A stretch of 64,000 bases of DNA from Saccharopolyspora ipomoeae (GTDB lineage Bacteria > Actinomycetota > Actinomycetes > Mycobacteriales > Pseudonocardiaceae): positions 62,001 to 126,000 of the forward strand of contig NZ_JASAOF010000005.1 in NCBI RefSeq assembly GCF_029952525.1, given 5' to 3'. Below are positions 52,005-57,743 of this stretch, piece after piece (the first letter of the stretch is position 1; every line of letters begins with the position of its first letter). The position numbers and the translations under genes are program-made. The notes under the pieces are model-generated. The model worked only from the letters and a program-made list of their open reading frames with translations. It did not search any database and was not told where the DNA came from.

Positions 52005-52846
52005 GCGAGGTGCGCGGCAAGGTCGCCGTGGTCACGGGCGCGGGTTCGGGCATCGGGCGCGAGGTCGCGTTCGAACTGGCCCGCCGGGGTGCCCGGCTGG
52101 CGGTGTCGGACGTGGACGGGAGCGGCCTGGCCGACACCGTTCAGCGGTTGGCGGCGCTGGGCGTCGAGGCCCACTCGGCTCGCCTGGACGTGAGCGACCG
52201 GCAGGCGGTGGAGACCTACGCGACCTCGGTGGCGGCGCACTTCGGCGCGGTGCACCAGGTCTACAACAACGCGGGCATCGCGGCGGGCGGCGCGGTCGCC
52301 GACAACGACTGGGAGACCTACGACAAGGTGCTGGGGGTCAACCTGTTCGGCGTGATCCACGGCAGCAAGGCGTTCCTGCCGCACCTGATCGACTCCGGCG
52401 ACGGGCACCTGGTCAACGTCTCCAGCCTCAACGGAATCATGGGCCAGCCGCGCAGCACCGCCTACTGCGCCAGCAAGTTCGGGGTGCGCGGGTTCACCGA
52501 GAGCCTGCGCGCCGAGATGCTCATGGCCGGGCACCCGGTGAAGGTGACGGTGGTGCATCCCGGCGGGGTGCGCACCAACATCGCTTCGGCCGGGCTGGAG
52601 GAGGCGCGGCGGCGCGGCGAGGTGACGCCCGAGGACGAGGCCCGGGTGCGCACCTACAACGAGAAGCTGCTGAAGATGCCGCCGCAGCAGGCCGCCCGCA
52701 TCGTCGTCGACGGCGTCGAGGCGGGCAAGGAGCGGGTGCTGGTGGGCAACGACGCGAAGCTGGTGGACCTGCTGGTCAGACTGCTGCCGCGGTTCTACCC
52801 GGCTCTGGCGGCGAAGTTCGAGCGCCGGCGCTTCTCGCAGGGGTGA
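52001..52846 (+). CDS. SDR family NAD(P)-dependent oxidoreductase
   Basis: A 281-residue classical SDR: GAGSGIG cofactor site, NNAG, catalytic Ser region NVSSLNG and YCASK. The ATG overlaps the hydrolase stop by 4 nt, so the three genes are translationally coupled. It probably oxidises an alcohol released by the hydrolase. Its 3' 71 nt overlap the convergent opine-dehydrogenase-like gene. Confidence 0.87.
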   Translation: MSEVRGKVAVVTGAGSGIGREVAFELARRGARLAVSDVDGSGLADTVQRLAALGVEAHSARLDVSDRQAVETYATSVAAHFGAVHQVYNNAGIAAGGAVADNDWETYDKVLGVNLFGVIHGSKAFLPHLIDSGDGHLVNVSSLNGIMGQPRSTAYCASKFGVRGFTESLRAEMLMAGHPVKVTVVHPGGVRTNIASAGLEEARRRGEVTPEDEARVRTYNEKLLKMPPQQAARIVVDGVEAGKERVLVGNDAKLVDLLVRLLPRFYPALAAKFERRRFSQG

Positions 52847-53903
52847 GCTCCCGGCGGAGCTGCTCGCCGGTGAGTTCCGCCCACCCGAGCCGGTGCAGGG
52901 TCCTCCCGCTGCGGCGGAAGGACTTCCCGGCGAGCGTGGACATCACGGTGATGATCGAGCCGACCATCGGCGTGGGCACGCCCGCGCGTTCGGCCAGGGC
53001 TTCCAGCGGGACCAGCGTGGAGGCGATGTCCTCGTGCAGGAAGCGGTGGTCCAGCGAGCCCGGCGCGAGGATGCTCCGGTAGGGCTCGGCGCTGCGCATG
53101 GCCTCCAGCAGGCCCGTGGTGGTGCAGCCGTAGTAGCGGTCGAGGACCTCGGGCATCGGGGTCAGCCGCGCGCCGTACGCCCCTGCGACGGCGCGGAACT
53201 CCTGCTCGACCTGGTCCAGCAGCGCGACCGTCCGGTCCGAGACGCCGTCGAGGTAGAACAGCAGCTCCTCGCCCCGGTCGATGGTGCCGAGGTTGGCCAG
53301 CGCGATCGGGGCGTGCGCGACCGCCCCGAAGTCGGTGAGTCCTCTGTGGACGAGGTTGTCGGCGATCTCCAGCTGCGGGAACCACTCCCGGATCATCGGC
53401 GCGCGCCGGTCGACGGCACCGGGGGTGGCGCCGGAGATCAGGTTCCAGCGCTTCGCGCCGAGCACGCGCACGCCGTCGTCGCCGTCGGGGCGGGCGGCGA
53501 ACAGCGCGTCGGTCTCCACCACGTCGACCCGAGGAGCTCCGCGGCGGCGGAGCGCGGCGGCGAATTCCGCTGAGCCGCACAGCTTCCCGGAGAACAGCAC
53601 GACCACATGATCATCGGTGAGGTGCGGCGCCAGCACCTCGGCGATCTCGCGGTAGGCGGTGGTGATCGCGGCGACGACCAGCACCGAGCAGCGCTCCGCG
53701 AGCTCGGCCGGGTCGGAGGTGACCTGAGCGATCGGGAAGACGCCCCGCTTCTCCCCGGACGCCCGAATCGCCCCGGATTCCCGAATTCCTCCCACCCGCG
53801 CGGGTTCTCGGGTGCACAACCGCACCCGATGCCCGCGTTCCGACAGGGCGGCGGCCACGGCCAGCCCTTCACCGCCCGCCCCGATCACGCCGATCTCGTC
53901 CAC
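52776..53903 (-). CDS. Opine dehydrogenase-like NAD(P)-binding protein
   Basis: A 375-residue protein with an N-terminal Rossmann domain (VDEIGVIGAGGEGLAVAAALSERGHRVRLCTR) and the C-terminal helical domain of the octopine/nopaline dehydrogenase family (FGAVAHAPIALANLGTIDRGEELLFYLDG ... EVLDRYYG). Start taken at the GTG at 53903 with GGGGAG upstream. It may reductively join an amino acid to a 2-oxoacid, but the partners cannot be told. Tail-to-tail overlap of 71 nt with the SDR gene. Confidence 0.75.
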   Translation of the reverse strand: MDEIGVIGAGGEGLAVAAALSERGHRVRLCTREPARVGGIRESGAIRASGEKRGVFPIAQVTSDPAELAERCSVLVVAAITTAYREIAEVLAPHLTDDHVVVLFSGKLCGSAEFAAALRRRGAPRVDVVETDALFAARPDGDDGVRVLGAKRWNLISGATPGAVDRRAPMIREWFPQLEIADNLVHRGLTDFGAVAHAPIALANLGTIDRGEELLFYLDGVSDRTVALLDQVEQEFRAVAGAYGARLTPMPEVLDRYYGCTTTGLLEAMRSAEPYRSILAPGSLDHRFLHEDIASTLVPLEALAERAGVPTPMVGSIITVMSTLAGKSFRRSGRTLHRLGWAELTGEQLRRELTPARSAGARTSPPEPGRTAAAV

Positions 53904-54099
53904 CGCAGCAACTCCCCTCGCGATCGAACCCACGTCCAGGTGGTCGGATGCACCGCGCGCGCAGTTCCCGGAAATCCGCATGACCCGGTGCACATCACCG
54001 CGCGGAGTCCCGCGGGTGGACAGGTCAGAACCGCCTCGGCCGAGCCGGTTTTAGGATACGTTTCAAAAGGAACGCGACCAAGGCGACCCAAGCTTCACT

Positions 54100-54579
54100 A
54101 AACGCGACCCACTACGGGTACGTTTCGCAAGGCAGTGGCAATTTCTTCTGAAATTGGCGGACCGCACAACGCGAGGAGAACCACGAAACGAAGCCAATTT
54201 CAGGAGAAATTGTCACTCCGCACGCAAGCAGCTCGACCCCGCGAAGCGATCCTGAAGAACCCCGTGGGAGTGGTGCAGTTTTCATGAAAACTGTCCGACC
54301 CCTCGGGGTCTGCCTGTGGGGTGGACTCCACGGTCCACGAGGTGGCTGAACTGGGGTTTTGGGGTACCCGTCTTGTGGGTGGGGTGACAGTTTTCATGAA
54401 AACTGTCCCACCCCTCGGGGGTACCTTGGGAGCGCTTCGCGGGGTGCTTCGGGTAGGTGCGGAGGGGCAATTTCGTCCGAAATTGGCTTCGTTTTGCGGT
54501 TTTCTCGCGTTGTGTGGTCCGCCAATTTCAAACGAAATTCCCCCTGCCTCTCGAAACGTATCCGTAGTGGGTCGCGTTT
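54100..54579. repeat. Approximately 480-bp imperfect palindrome built from palindromic modules
   Basis: The two arms are reverse complements with roughly 80-90% identity by eye, centred near 54340. The outer unit AAACGCGACCCACTACGG followed by TACGTTTCG begins at 54100 and its complement ends at 54579. Four AATTTC-N4-GAAATT palindromes lie symmetrically at 54140-54155, 54196-54211, 54469-54484 and 54524-54539. Two copies of CAGTTTTCATGAAAACTG, itself a perfect 18-bp palindrome, lie at 54276-54293 and 54388-54405. The positions of mirrored copies sum to the same value within 1-2 bp. Nothing here encodes protein. Confidence 0.85.
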
Positions 54580-54646
54580 ACCGAGGAAAAACCGTCCCCT
54601 GGTGAGTTCCCCACCGAACGGGAGGAGCGCAAGAGGGGTGTGGAGG

Positions 54647-54676
54647 GGGTGGAGGTTCACATGTGAACCTCCACCC
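54647..54676 (-). terminator. Strong hairpin downstream of the DszC-like gene
   Basis: GGGTGGAGGTTCACA and its exact complement form a perfect 30-bp palindrome, ending 15 nt after the stop of the minus-strand sulfur operon. CTCCA/TGGAG pairs extend the stem with a bulge. A likely operon terminator. Confidence 0.75.
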
Positions 54677-54691
54677 GCTCCAACGGTCCGG

Positions 54692-55912
54692 TCACGTGTA
54701 CCAGGTGGGTTCGGGAACCTCGCCGAGCAACGCGTACCGGCCGACTTCAGCCCGCTTGTAGGCCACCGGGTCGTGCAGGCTGTGGGTGCGCAGGTTGCGC
54801 CAGTAGATGTCCAGGCCCACCGAGTTCGACGACGCTCGCGCGCCGGTCAGCTCGAACACGCGGGTCGCGATCTCCAGCCCGACGTCGATGACCCGCTGCT
54901 TGGCGGCGGCGATGCGCACGGCGACGTCACCGCGCTGCTGCTCGGTGAGCGCCTCGCGCTCGGCGTGCAGGACCGCCGAGATCTCCTCGCCCGCCTTGTC
55001 CACCAGCGCCTCGGCCGCCCACAGCTTGGCCTGCAGGTCGCCGTAGCCGTCCAGCAGGTAGAACTCCTCGCCCGCGGAGTCCTTGTTGTCCCCGCCGTAG
55101 GGCCAGGCCCGGGTGTGCTGGGAGGTGTAGGACAGCCCGGCGTCCAGCGCGGCCTGGGCGATCCCGAGGTAGAAGTTGGTGAACACCAGCTGGATGGTGG
55201 GCACGTTGAGGGTGTTGTAGGTCAGCGGCTGGAACTCCTTGTCCACGAAGCCGGCCGCCGAGGCCCACGGCACGCGCACGCCGTTGATCTCCACGCTGCC
55301 GGACTCGGTGAGCCGCTGGCCGAGGTTGTCCCAGTCGGAGCCGTAGACGATCCCCTCCTGCCGGGAGGGCACGATCGCGAAGACGTGCGTGTCGGTGCCC
55401 TCCAGCACGCCTTCCAGCACGGTCAGGTCGGAGACCTTGCTGCCGGTGGAGAACGATTTGCGGCCGCGGTAGACCAGCGTGTCGCCCTCATCGGTGATGA
55501 CGAGGTCGTCGTCGCGCGGGTTGACGGCGCCGCCGAAGAAGAACTCGTTGCTGGTGTAGAGCTGCTCGACCTCGGCGATCTGCTCCGGCGTGGCCACCAG
55601 TCGCGCCGCCCAGGCCCACAGGTAGTGGTAGCCGAGCAGCTGTCCGATCGAGCCGTCCCCTCTGGCGACCTCGCGGATCACGCGGTAGGCGGTCCGCCAG
55701 CTCTCGCCCGCGCCGCCGTGCTCGCGCGGTCCGAGCAGGGTGACCAGGCCGGATTCCTTGAGCAGCCGGACCTCCTCGTGCGGGGTCTCGTTGGCGCGGT
55801 CGCGGGCCAGCGCGGTCTCGGCGAGCACTCCGGCGACCTCGCGGGCGCGGTCGATCCAGCCCTGGGTGGTGTCGGGGCGCGCGGTGAAGCGGCGCGTTTC
55901 GATGGCGGTCAT
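54692..55912 (-). CDS. Acyl-CoA dehydrogenase-fold FMNH2 monooxygenase (DszC-like)
   Basis: A 406-residue protein of the acyl-CoA dehydrogenase fold, close in pattern to DszC dibenzothiophene monooxygenase (about 417 residues): GPREHGGAGESWRTAYRVIREVARGDGSIGQLLGYHYLWAW, GGAVNPRDDDL, YRGRKSFSTGSKVSD, and the C-terminal RNLRTHSLHDPVAYKRAEVGRYAL. ATG at 55912 after GGGAGGA. Such enzymes oxygenate sulfur compounds with FMNH2. Last gene of a four-gene sulfur operon. Confidence 0.85.
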   Translation of the reverse strand: MTAIETRRFTARPDTTQGWIDRAREVAGVLAETALARDRANETPHEEVRLLKESGLVTLLGPREHGGAGESWRTAYRVIREVARGDGSIGQLLGYHYLWAWAARLVATPEQIAEVEQLYTSNEFFFGGAVNPRDDDLVITDEGDTLVYRGRKSFSTGSKVSDLTVLEGVLEGTDTHVFAIVPSRQEGIVYGSDWDNLGQRLTESGSVEINGVRVPWASAAGFVDKEFQPLTYNTLNVPTIQLVFTNFYLGIAQAALDAGLSYTSQHTRAWPYGGDNKDSAGEEFYLLDGYGDLQAKLWAAEALVDKAGEEISAVLHAEREALTEQQRGDVAVRIAAAKQRVIDVGLEIATRVFELTGARASSNSVGLDIYWRNLRTHSLHDPVAYKRAEVGRYALLGEVPEPTWYT

Positions 55913-55941
55913 GGTCCTCCCTCTCTCGGTGCTTCCGGTTC

Positions 55942-57066
55942 TCAGCGGGCGTTGCCGACGCCGACGGGGTCTCCGGTGCGGTCGAGGTCTGCTTCGAGTT
56001 CGCGGACGATCGGCAGGACCTCCTTCCCGAAGTGCTCGACGTCTTCGAGGTAGTGCAGGAATCCGAGCAGCAGCAGGTTCGCGCCGCGCTTCTTGTACTC
56101 GACGATGCGGTGCGCGATCTGCTCGGGCGTGCCGATCAGGCCGGTGCGGAATCCGTCGTTGTACTGCACGAGGTCGGCGAACTCGGAGTCGGCCCACATG
56201 CCCTTGCCGTCCGATGTGGAGTTACCGGCCTGCTGCACGGACTTCCGGAACCCCTCCACCGCACCGACATCGGCCTTGTCGACGATCTCGCGCAGCACGT
56301 CGCGGGCCTCGGCCTCGGTGTCGCGAGCGATGACGAAGCCGTTGAGCCCGAAGCGCACCGCGCGGTCGTTCTCGGCGGCGAAGCTCCGCACATCGGCGAC
56401 CTGCTCGGAGAAGCCGTCGTAGTCCTTGCCGTTGCTGAAGTACCAGTCCGACACGCGCCCGGCGAGTCGGCGGGCGGCGGTGGAGTTGCCGCCCTGGAAG
56501 ATCTCCGGGTGCGGTCTGCCGGGCACGTCGTAGGGCTGCGGGCGGAGGCTGAAGTCGTGGATCCGGTAGAAGTCGCCGGGGAATTCGAAGTTCGGCCGGG
56601 TCCACAGCCCGCGCAGCACGCGGATGAACTCCTCGGTCCGGCGGTAGCGCTCGTCGTGCTCCAGCCACGGTTCGCCGAGCCCGGTGAACTCGTCCTTGAA
56701 CCAGCCGCTGACGATGTTCACCGCGAACCGGCCCTGCGAGATGATGTCGGCGGTGATGCCGAACTTCGCCAGGATCGCGGGATGCCACAACCCGGGGTGG
56801 GCGGCGACGATGAGTTTCAGCCGTTCGGTGGCGGTGAGCAGGCCGAGGCTGAAGGCGGCAGGGTCGTGCTGCTGCGCGGCGCCGTAGCTGGAGGCGTAGC
56901 GGACCTGGCTCAGGGCGTACTCGAAGCCGCTGTTCTCGGCGAGCACCGCGAGTTCCTCGTTGTACTCGTAGCTGAACTCGGTGCGCTGCTCGATGCTGCT
57001 GGTGACCAGGCCGCCGCTGACGTTGGGGACCCAGTAGGCGAACTTGAGTGGTTCGTTGGCGGACAT
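55942..57066 (-). CDS. sfnG: FMNH2-dependent dimethylsulfone monooxygenase (SfnG-like)
   Basis: A 374-residue luciferase-like monooxygenase. It matches SfnG well: FAYWVPNVSGGLVTSSIEQRTEFSYEYN, FEYALSQVRY, AVNIVSGWFKDEFTGLGEPWLEHDERYRRTEEFIRVLRG, EIFQGGNSTAARR and the LVQYNDGFRTGLIGTPEQIAHRIVE C-terminal segment. It converts dimethylsulfone to methanesulfinate and formaldehyde. ATG at 57066 with GGGAG upstream; 29 bp upstream of the DszC-like gene. Confidence 0.9.
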   Translation of the reverse strand: MSANEPLKFAYWVPNVSGGLVTSSIEQRTEFSYEYNEELAVLAENSGFEYALSQVRYASSYGAAQQHDPAAFSLGLLTATERLKLIVAAHPGLWHPAILAKFGITADIISQGRFAVNIVSGWFKDEFTGLGEPWLEHDERYRRTEEFIRVLRGLWTRPNFEFPGDFYRIHDFSLRPQPYDVPGRPHPEIFQGGNSTAARRLAGRVSDWYFSNGKDYDGFSEQVADVRSFAAENDRAVRFGLNGFVIARDTEAEARDVLREIVDKADVGAVEGFRKSVQQAGNSTSDGKGMWADSEFADLVQYNDGFRTGLIGTPEQIAHRIVEYKKRGANLLLLGFLHYLEDVEHFGKEVLPIVRELEADLDRTGDPVGVGNAR

Positions 57067-57146
57067 GGAAGATGCTCCCTCGCAAGTGTTTTCGGGCAGG
57101 GTCGACCGACGCACGTGCCGGCACGTGCGTGGTGCGGGTGGTGAGA

Positions 57147-57743
57147 TCAGCGGGTCAGGTGGACCCCGGCCGGATCGGCGGGCACGGCGGTCAGCCCGTG
57201 GTCGGCGGCGAAGTCGCGCAGTTCCGGTCCGGTGGCCATGCGGGTCTCGTCGGCCGGGCTGACCAGGTGCGCGAACACCGCCGCGGGCGCGTGCCCGGCC
57301 CGGGTGACCAGTCGCAGCGCGGCTCGGGCGAGGCTCGGCCGCGGGTGGTCGAGGTCGACGGCGACGGGCACCAGGTGACCTGGCCGGGTCAGGTCGGCGG
57401 CGACCGCGCCGGGGTCGGCGAGCACGCGGGCGGCACGCGCCCGGTCTGCGGCGGAGATACCGGTGGTCACGCCGACGGCGGCGTCGACGGTGACGCACAC
57501 CGTCGTCCCGGCCTCCCGCCGGGCGCGAGCGGCGACGGGCGGGAGTTCCAGTGCGTCGCAGCGGCTTTCGGGCAGCGCGACGCACAGGAAGCCCGACGAG
57601 TGCCGGACGGCGAAGGCGGTGCCCGCGACGTCGGCCCGGGAGGCGGGGAACACGATCCCGCCCTCGTCACCGGCGCCGTGCACGACGACGGTCTCGCCCG
57701 CGGCGACGGCGGCCAGCGCCACGTCCTGCTCTTCGATCAGCAT
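57147..57743 (-). CDS. RibB-like (DHBP synthase) protein lacking canonical catalytic motifs
   Basis: A 198-residue protein of the 3,4-dihydroxy-2-butanone 4-phosphate synthase fold, which normally makes the four-carbon riboflavin precursor. It keeps the GVTTGISAADR (91-101) and RPGH (120-123) segments. The acidic metal-binding loop, DDxxRExEGD in RibB, is replaced by HGAGDEGG (22-29). The RGGHTEA segment that carries the metal-binding His is RPSLARA (135-141). Normal catalysis is therefore doubtful. It sits between SfnB and SfnG genes in the sulfur operon. ATG at 57743 after GAGGA. Confidence 0.85.
   Translation of the reverse strand: MLIEEQDVALAAVAAGETVVVHGAGDEGGIVFPASRADVAGTAFAVRHSSGFLCVALPESRCDALELPPVAARARREAGTTVCVTVDAAVGVTTGISAADRARAARVLADPGAVAADLTRPGHLVPVAVDLDHPRPSLARAALRLVTRAGHAPAAVFAHLVSPADETRMATGPELRDFAADHGLTAVPADPAGVHLTR

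Follow-up and report, generated by a model that had tools for sequence, protein, structure and literature searches.

Between two minus-strand genes of the Saccharopolyspora genome analysed here (G000; 6.63 Mb in 47 contigs) lies a large modular palindrome, which raises the question of what kind of sequence it is and how it came to its place. The initial annotation of the 64-kb stretch of DNA that holds it (hereafter referred to as the window) offered four guesses: a MITE-like element, a structured RNA, a DNA-architecture site or a protein-binding array. Here we compare the palindrome with its relatives within G000, in S. flava (G063) and in further genomes, and find that the MITE-like guess fits best among the four. 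The window feature is probably one copy of a non-coding, non-autonomous, MITE-like mobile repeat; dispersed copies, target duplications in the clearest of them, presence or absence at orthologous sites and the lack of a common open reading frame (ORF) speak for this reading, and the lack of a partner transposon speaks against it.

Architecture of the palindrome

An inverted repeat of 482 bp, made of three pairs of arm segments (Table 1), occupies positions 54099–54580 of the window and confirms the large palindrome with two mirrored arms that had been described there. The arms of this copy agree at 82% of 189 mirror positions. Two AATTTC-N4-GAAATT palindromes and one 18-bp palindrome had been assigned to each arm; all four of the former were located by a search allowing up to one mismatch, for which 100 shuffles gave a mean of 0.01, and both of the latter by a search allowing up to three mismatches, with 0 in 100 shuffles. 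Beside the four AATTTC-N4-GAAATT sites, the inverted repeat contains two AGTTTTCATGAAAACT sites, and all six inner sites share the form ARTTTY-N4-RAAAYT, which fits no other place in the 64-kb window.

The outer boundaries are more complex than first described. The proposed conserved boundary unit holds in so far as TAAACGCGACC is present at both ends of the palindrome (on its own a weak marker, as 10 of 100 shuffles give two matches at one mismatch), but AAACGCGACCC is the inner part of a 62-bp unit. Likewise, the feature edges first drawn enclose the central palindrome, but one more unit starts outside the left edge, at 54054–54058. This left 62-bp unit spans 54058–54119 (90%), and its GGATACGTTTCAAAAGG start corresponds to 116054–116070 of contig C43. 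Units of 62 bp flank the palindrome head to tail and face outwards, and the innermost one overlaps the arm. On the left, the window copy has one unit, and on the right a truncated one; no 62-bp unit is listed to the right of its palindrome, unlike in the G000 copies L145, L146 and L147, and a further copy, L148, is also devoid of units on one side.

Table 1. Positions of the parts of the window copy and of its flanking remnants
Feature	Position	Strand	Remark
Arm pair 1	54099-54175/54504-54580		90% complementary
Arm pair 2	54176-54223/54457-54504		83% complementary
Arm pair 3	54236-54295/54386-54445		82% complementary
Left palindrome arm	54099..54295	+	inverted repeats I1, I2, I3
Right palindrome arm	54386..54580	-	outer 62-bp unit truncated at 54580
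Central spacer	54296..54385	.	holds the element's most variable 20 columns
AATTTC-N4-GAAATT site 1	54140..54155	.	motif search
AATTTC-N4-GAAATT site 2	54196..54211	.	motif search
AATTTC-N4-GAAATT site 3	54469..54484	.	motif search
AATTTC-N4-GAAATT site 4	54524..54539	.	motif search
CAGTTTTCATGAAAACTG, left copy	54276..54293	.	18-bp palindrome search
CAGTTTTCATGAAAACTG, right copy	54388..54405	.	18-bp palindrome search
Element left end, one 62-bp unit starting GGATACGTTTCAAAAGG (54054-54070)	54054..54119	+	overlaps outer arm
Left target remnant, half REP-like palindrome CCGGTTTTAG	54045..54054	+	window sequence and junction half-site count
Right target remnant GAGGAAAAACCGTCCCCTGGTGA, right half of short REP-like hairpin	54583..54605	-	complete in S. 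flava (L154 compared with window)

The element is located upstream of the ORF at 52776–53993 (minus strand), which encodes an octopine-dehydrogenase domain (Pfam), and on its other side an acyl-CoA-dehydrogenase-like gene (Pfam; 54692–55912, minus strand) ends at 54692. Just past the stop codon of this gene lies a near-perfect inverted repeat of 42 bp (54641–54682), which is probably the terminator of this gene; a related hairpin occurs at this place in S. flava. The domains encoded at 54692–57743 (acyl-CoA-dehydrogenase-like, luciferase-like monooxygenase and DHBP synthase) are reminiscent of a desulfurisation-type cluster. Within the element, the longest ORF per copy (n = 21) ranges from 58 to 139 amino acids in varying frames and positions, and no ORF common to the 21 copies was found; four window ORFs that were tested gave no match above the cut-off.

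Copies, relatives and probable insertion sites

A search of G000 with the element found five full copies, a half copy and contig-end pieces, and because of these pieces the number of full copies is possibly one too low. In S. flava, 16 full copies and two altered ones (L143 and L144) were fetched with their flanks, and remnants are present besides the full copies of the two genomes. The repeat is thus neither unique in its genome nor absent from relatives, and the first half of the reservation attached to the initial annotation falls away. Exact-match stretches lie in S. flava DSM 44771 in 57 of 63 cases, and the six others, at single places in unrelated organisms, look like chance. Across the genus, 4 of 22 genomes have matches: G000, S. 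flava, G197 (45 matches, those listed covering the 18-mer core) and G208 (six matches). In a family sample of 249 genomes, for each of which the two best candidates were scored, three genomes match, G197 only with core stretches of ~47 bp, and the large element was not found beyond G000 and S. flava. A phage or plasmid origin is without support: a search with the S. flava copy L133 returned no phage or plasmid match, and one exact 20-bp unit pattern had no match in viral_contigs.

Of the two altered copies, L143 has a run of N in the middle of the palindrome, perhaps an assembly gap at the hairpin. L144 is a rearranged element, with two arms around inward units. Its locus is shared with L149 of G000, which is only half an element and has just one core palindrome, the element thus being built differently at one locus in two species.

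The 16 full S. flava copies carry one to seven 62-bp units on the left and one to four on the right (contig orientation), and the G000 copies have fewer. GGRTACGTTTC-like ends occur on both sides of the resolved copies, and the same sequence recurs inside the arrays. All six inner sites, spaced by ~55, 82, 110, 82 and 55 bp, are present in 20 of the 21 full copies; in the exception, L140, one of them no longer fits the ARTTTY-N4-RAAAYT form. The spacings of 55, 82 and 110 bp are close to two, three and four times 27.4 bp, which may be coincidence. In the 21-copy alignment, 85 of the 96 columns in the six 16-bp sites are invariant, compared with 191 of 386 outside them, and mean variability is 0.205 at consensus positions 220–239, within the central spacer. 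As no part of the element is more conserved than the six 16-bp palindromes, a mobile element of this kind may contain a protein-binding array, as one of the first guesses had it.

Conserved palindromes at a kept spacing would also be consistent with a host DNA-architecture or regulatory site, in which the palindromes and 62-bp units bind a host protein (a nucleoid protein, or a terminator or insulator factor) and the copies are retained for their usefulness at gene ends. The element loci accord with this idea, as 14 of the 24 lie between convergent genes, 9 between tandem genes and 1 between divergent genes, in a count for which the class of the window locus was corrected by hand from convergent to tandem and four loci were counted in both species. 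(The home-made gene caller had dropped the window ORF at 52776–53993, probably for overlap.) However, selfish insertions are also tolerated at gene ends, the large element is present in only 2 of the 249 family genomes, and two congeneric species hold 5 and 16 full copies, with some of the sites differing. We therefore consider such a host function unlikely, and a mobile repeat the better account.

A comparison of presence and absence in relatives revealed sites that differ between G000 and S. flava. When 9 G000 element loci were compared with 19 S. flava element loci, five had both flanks in common with one of the latter (L145/L127, L146/L143, L148/L142, L149/L144 and L151/L192). No such partner was found for the other four, which are the window locus, L147 and two pieces at contig ends (L150 and L152). 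At the orthologue of the window locus in S. flava, the two neighbouring genes are present (with 91 and 88% identity), together with a luciferase-like gene (Pfam) and a short hairpin, CACCAGGGGACAGTTTTAGTGAGAACTGTC...GAGGAAAAACTGTCCCCTGGTG, and the large element is absent. The window retains CCGGTTTTAG to the left and GAGGAAAAACCGTCCCCTGGTGA to the right of the element, two pieces of such a hairpin. The window copy probably entered a short hairpin, which persists at this locus in S. flava, and would later have lost its right end and most of the target hairpin.

The S. flava copy L141 provides an occupied site with an uninterrupted counterpart: it reads CGGACAGTTTTCACTAA-element-CTAAAACTGTCCCCTGG, and its G000 orthologue has CGGACAGTTCTCACTGGAACCGTCCCCTGG uninterrupted; at this locus CGGACAGTTCTCACTGGAACCGTCCCC is unbroken in G000, compared with CGGACAGTTTTCACTAA-element-CTAAAACTGTCCCC in S. 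flava. The empty site carries CTGG instead of CTAA, and to its left the two species also differ by ~0.8 kb, the match being exact only to the right and for ~15 bp to the left. L145 has the same form (GGACTAA-element-CTAAAACC). Among the junctions that could be resolved, clean target duplications were found at only three copies, CTAA/TAA in L141 and L145 and CTAG/TAG in L146, imperfect ones with changed bases at two more (L132 and L138), and none at the truncated window copy; as the element ends begin with G, duplications of 3 bp (TAA, TAG) and 4 bp (CTAA, CTAG) are indistinguishable. Two of the three copies with clean duplications split REP-like palindromes of the CAGTTTTCACTAAAACTG type, and the third, L146, is flanked on either side by CTAG and sits at stop codons of genes, outside any REP-like palindrome. 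A REP-like half-site, C[AG]G[TC]T[TCA], lies within 22 bp at 18 of 44 junctions, compared with 6.0% of nearby windows and 8.3% of 960 intergenic windows, the motif having been defined after the junctions were viewed and three orthologous locus pairs being counted twice.

A tree built from the 21 copies places the window copy together with L145 (contig C22 of G000) and the S. flava copy L127 (support 0.89), and from this grouping it looks like a daughter of their lineage. Two copies that share a locus need not be each other's closest relatives, as is the case for L148 and L142, which are only 83% identical. At the G197 orthologue of the window locus (L155), two palindromes similar to CAGTTTTAGTCCAAACTG enclose an insertion that by eye could be taken for an IS30-type element.

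Arm divergence, RNA and the small palindromes

The mirrored differences between the arms had been attributed to independent drift or compensatory change. In the alignment of 21 copies (A1), the mean agreement of left and right arms is 0.840 within the same copy and 0.835 between different copies, a level that shuffling of right arms among copies reaches in 2 of 300 trials, and the outer 62 bp alone stand out (0.898 versus 0.886). Pairs changed on both sides number 22 against 15.6 expected (0 of 500 shuffles), paired cells make up 86.9% against 86.4% in shuffles (1 of 500), and the covariation excess also holds over slid versions; it amounts to ~0.5 points overall, does not extend beyond the outer 62 bp, and comes from a pair counter with which related sequences can exceed such shuffles. 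One-sided changes at normally Watson–Crick pairs comprise 64 G.T and 79 A.C cells, counted in element orientation, which at some loci is not transcript orientation, and double changes that keep Watson–Crick pairing comprise 13 kinds in 23 cells. Given the small same-copy excess and G.T not above A.C, divergence by drift predominates between the arms, and the unit region has seen some exchange. Drift thus accounts for most of the mirrored differences; compensatory change, for which the proposed arm alignment gave a formal excess, is hardly supported for the large palindrome. In seven of the 21 copies (L133, L135–L139 and L141), the site 4 loop AGAA is the mirror of the left-arm loop TTCT, which fits arm-to-arm conversion; these seven copies have TCCA or TCCT at site 3.

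Such mirrored loops in the right arm, together with the homogeneous long unit array of L133 (95% matches) and the half or rearranged elements L144, L149, L151 and L192, could suggest that recombination and replication slippage (nested growth of REPs, exchange between arms), and not transposition, generated the copies. Against this, all 21 copies, spread over 19 distinct loci, have their 482 bp in one and the same order, and there are the uninterrupted counterpart site and the duplications; we judge an origin of this kind quite improbable.

The least probable of the explanations considered, to which we give very little credence, is that the transcript forms a conserved hairpin, acting as a structured RNA or a bidirectional terminator. 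The single-strand fold of the element is very stable (−335.9 kcal/mol, z −22.6), copies are positioned after stop codons and the covariation excess formally agrees with RNA pairing, but this excess is limited in extent and size as described above, and G.T cells do not outnumber A.C cells. A search of 53900–54800 against Rfam gave seven matches up to an E value of 1, all far below the gathering score (the best, to a microRNA model, reached 50.8 bits against a cut-off of 136), and no T-tailed terminator was found there. The structured-RNA guess is thus hardly supported for the large palindrome.

The genome search for the 18-bp palindrome, likewise proposed at the outset, returned 257 occurrences in G000 at up to two mismatches and 0 for a reversed-pattern control; at up to one mismatch, 3 of the 249 family genomes have it, with 108, 155 and a single occurrence. 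Exact copies of the 14-bp core GTTTTCATGAAAAC number 271 in G000, 336 in S. flava, 53 in G197 and 1 in G217; the remaining 18 genomes among the 22 of the genus have none. At loci L034–L096 and throughout G000, hundreds of GTTTTCATGAAAAC palindromes lie near gene 3′ ends in clusters, with recurring spacings of, for example, 37, 46, 74 and 110 bp. At 57 S. flava loci, 155 copies, including palindromes of the large elements, comprise 93 between convergent genes, 46 between tandem genes, 4 between divergent genes, 2 in called genes and 10 at locus edges. Intervals with a palindrome number 35 of 56 between convergent genes, 21 of 129 between tandem genes and 3 of 70 between divergent genes (Fisher p 3e-13 for convergent versus divergent and 2e-9 versus tandem), proportions of which only the relative enrichment is meaningful because the loci were chosen for the 18-mer and palindromes of the large elements are counted.

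The flanks of the 122 isolated S. flava copies are complementary within a copy at 0.550, compared with 0.476 when shuffled (0 of 1,000). On the presumed sense strand, the 33 tandem copies have 235 Watson–Crick pairs against 199.9 in shuffles and 49 G.U pairs against 51.6, and the 81 convergent copies have 573 against 490.3 and 50 against 61.6, respectively. Paired stem changes that come without a G.U signature point to selection or copying on DNA, not RNA. A hint of RNA-level selection on the small palindromes, given by 49 G.U and 21 A.C combinations in the tandem copies, disappeared on comparison with the 51.6 and 25.0 expected from shuffles. No GTAG or CGTC tag at a fixed position was evident in the 24 positions on either side of the 122 isolated copies.

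Possible mobilisation and comparison with known systems

Candidate mobilising enzymes were sought in two transposase families, PF01609 and PF01797. The Y1/RAYT family (PF01797) has 0 matches in G000, G063, G197 and G208, and the five genomes with one match each among the 15 searched include none of these four; a RAYT-driven REP is rejected because no such gene was found in the palindrome-rich genomes. PF01609 has 0 matches in G000, and in S. flava and G197 the end-like words near genes of this family all have two mismatches, one of them lying inside the gene at L225 and those at L226 lying 3.1 kb apart. In G000, the end pattern GGRTACGTTTCRNAAGG at up to two mismatches has 24 matches (control, 1), all of them in copies, contig-end pieces or remnants except for one two-mismatch occurrence on contig C12. 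Neither the end pattern in G000 nor the surroundings of PF01609 genes yielded an autonomous partner with matching ends.

We propose that a transposase acting in trans would bind the repeated 62-bp ends (GGRTACGTTTCRNAAGG...) and make staggered cuts of 3–4 bp at YTAR-type sites, often at the centre of REP-like hairpins. Local tandem duplication could make the 62-bp arrays grow and shrink, and the inner palindromes may persist because they bind protein or form hairpins in the DNA. A more far-reaching reading, which we put forward tentatively and think doubtful, is that the element represents a new class of mobile DNA that is composite and palindromic. One kind of 16-bp palindrome, ARTTTY-N4-RAAAYT, would make up its target, core and arms alike, one putative dedicated protein would recognise both these sites and the 62-bp arrays, and palindromes, with no transposon of their own, would insert into one another and build up modular structures.

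Among known systems, MITEs share with the element a non-coding, multi-copy and intergenic nature, inverted ends and, as seen in its clearest copies, short duplications of the YTAR/TAR type. The element is a short, non-coding, multi-copy sequence and has terminal inverted repeats, both of which mark MITEs, and it falls short of full membership in that a search by PF01609 and the end pattern for an autonomous element with matching ends yielded no partner. It further differs from MITEs, as derivatives of DDE insertion sequences, in that its ends are arrays of 62-bp units and its whole interior is palindromic, with six conserved 16-bp palindromes. The CTAA and CTAG duplications agree with YTAR, named as the IS5 duplication motif in the part of the source consulted (PMC10359306), and a 3-bp TAA/TAG duplication fits equally. 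Insertion inside a repetitive extragenic palindrome is shared with the REP-targeting insertion sequences ISPpu9, ISPpu10, ISPsy8, ISPa11, ISRm19 and ISRm22, as given in an excerpt of PMC1525189; these carry a transposase, whereas no such gene was found in the element.

The small GTTTTCATGAAAAC palindromes resemble REP, BIME and REPIN sequences in being mostly extragenic, present in hundreds of copies, clustered and marked by paired stem changes. REPs are 20–40 bp in length in the consulted part of a REP survey (PMC3733652), and it is only these small palindromes that agree with REPs in size, extragenic position and more than 100 copies (271 and 336 copies; 2 of 155 in called genes); the large element is more than 10 times longer. 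Unlike REPs, they show no evident GTAG or CGTC tag at a fixed position, and no Y1/RAYT gene was found in the three genomes with many copies. The consulted part of the survey assigns the GTAG and CGTC families to other phyla and does not use the word actinobacteria (PMC3733652), and a literature search of titles and abstract openings found no description of such repeats in actinobacteria. In this lineage, small palindromes number in the hundreds, the search for a RAYT gave none, and several copies of a large modular element lie within such palindromes; the lineage thereby offers a system for asking what spreads REP-like repeats without the usual enzyme and whether iterated 62-bp ends are transposase sites, and such hairpins may account for some assembly breaks in these genomes. 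In its behaviour, the element works like a MITE and is not a REP in the RAYT sense.
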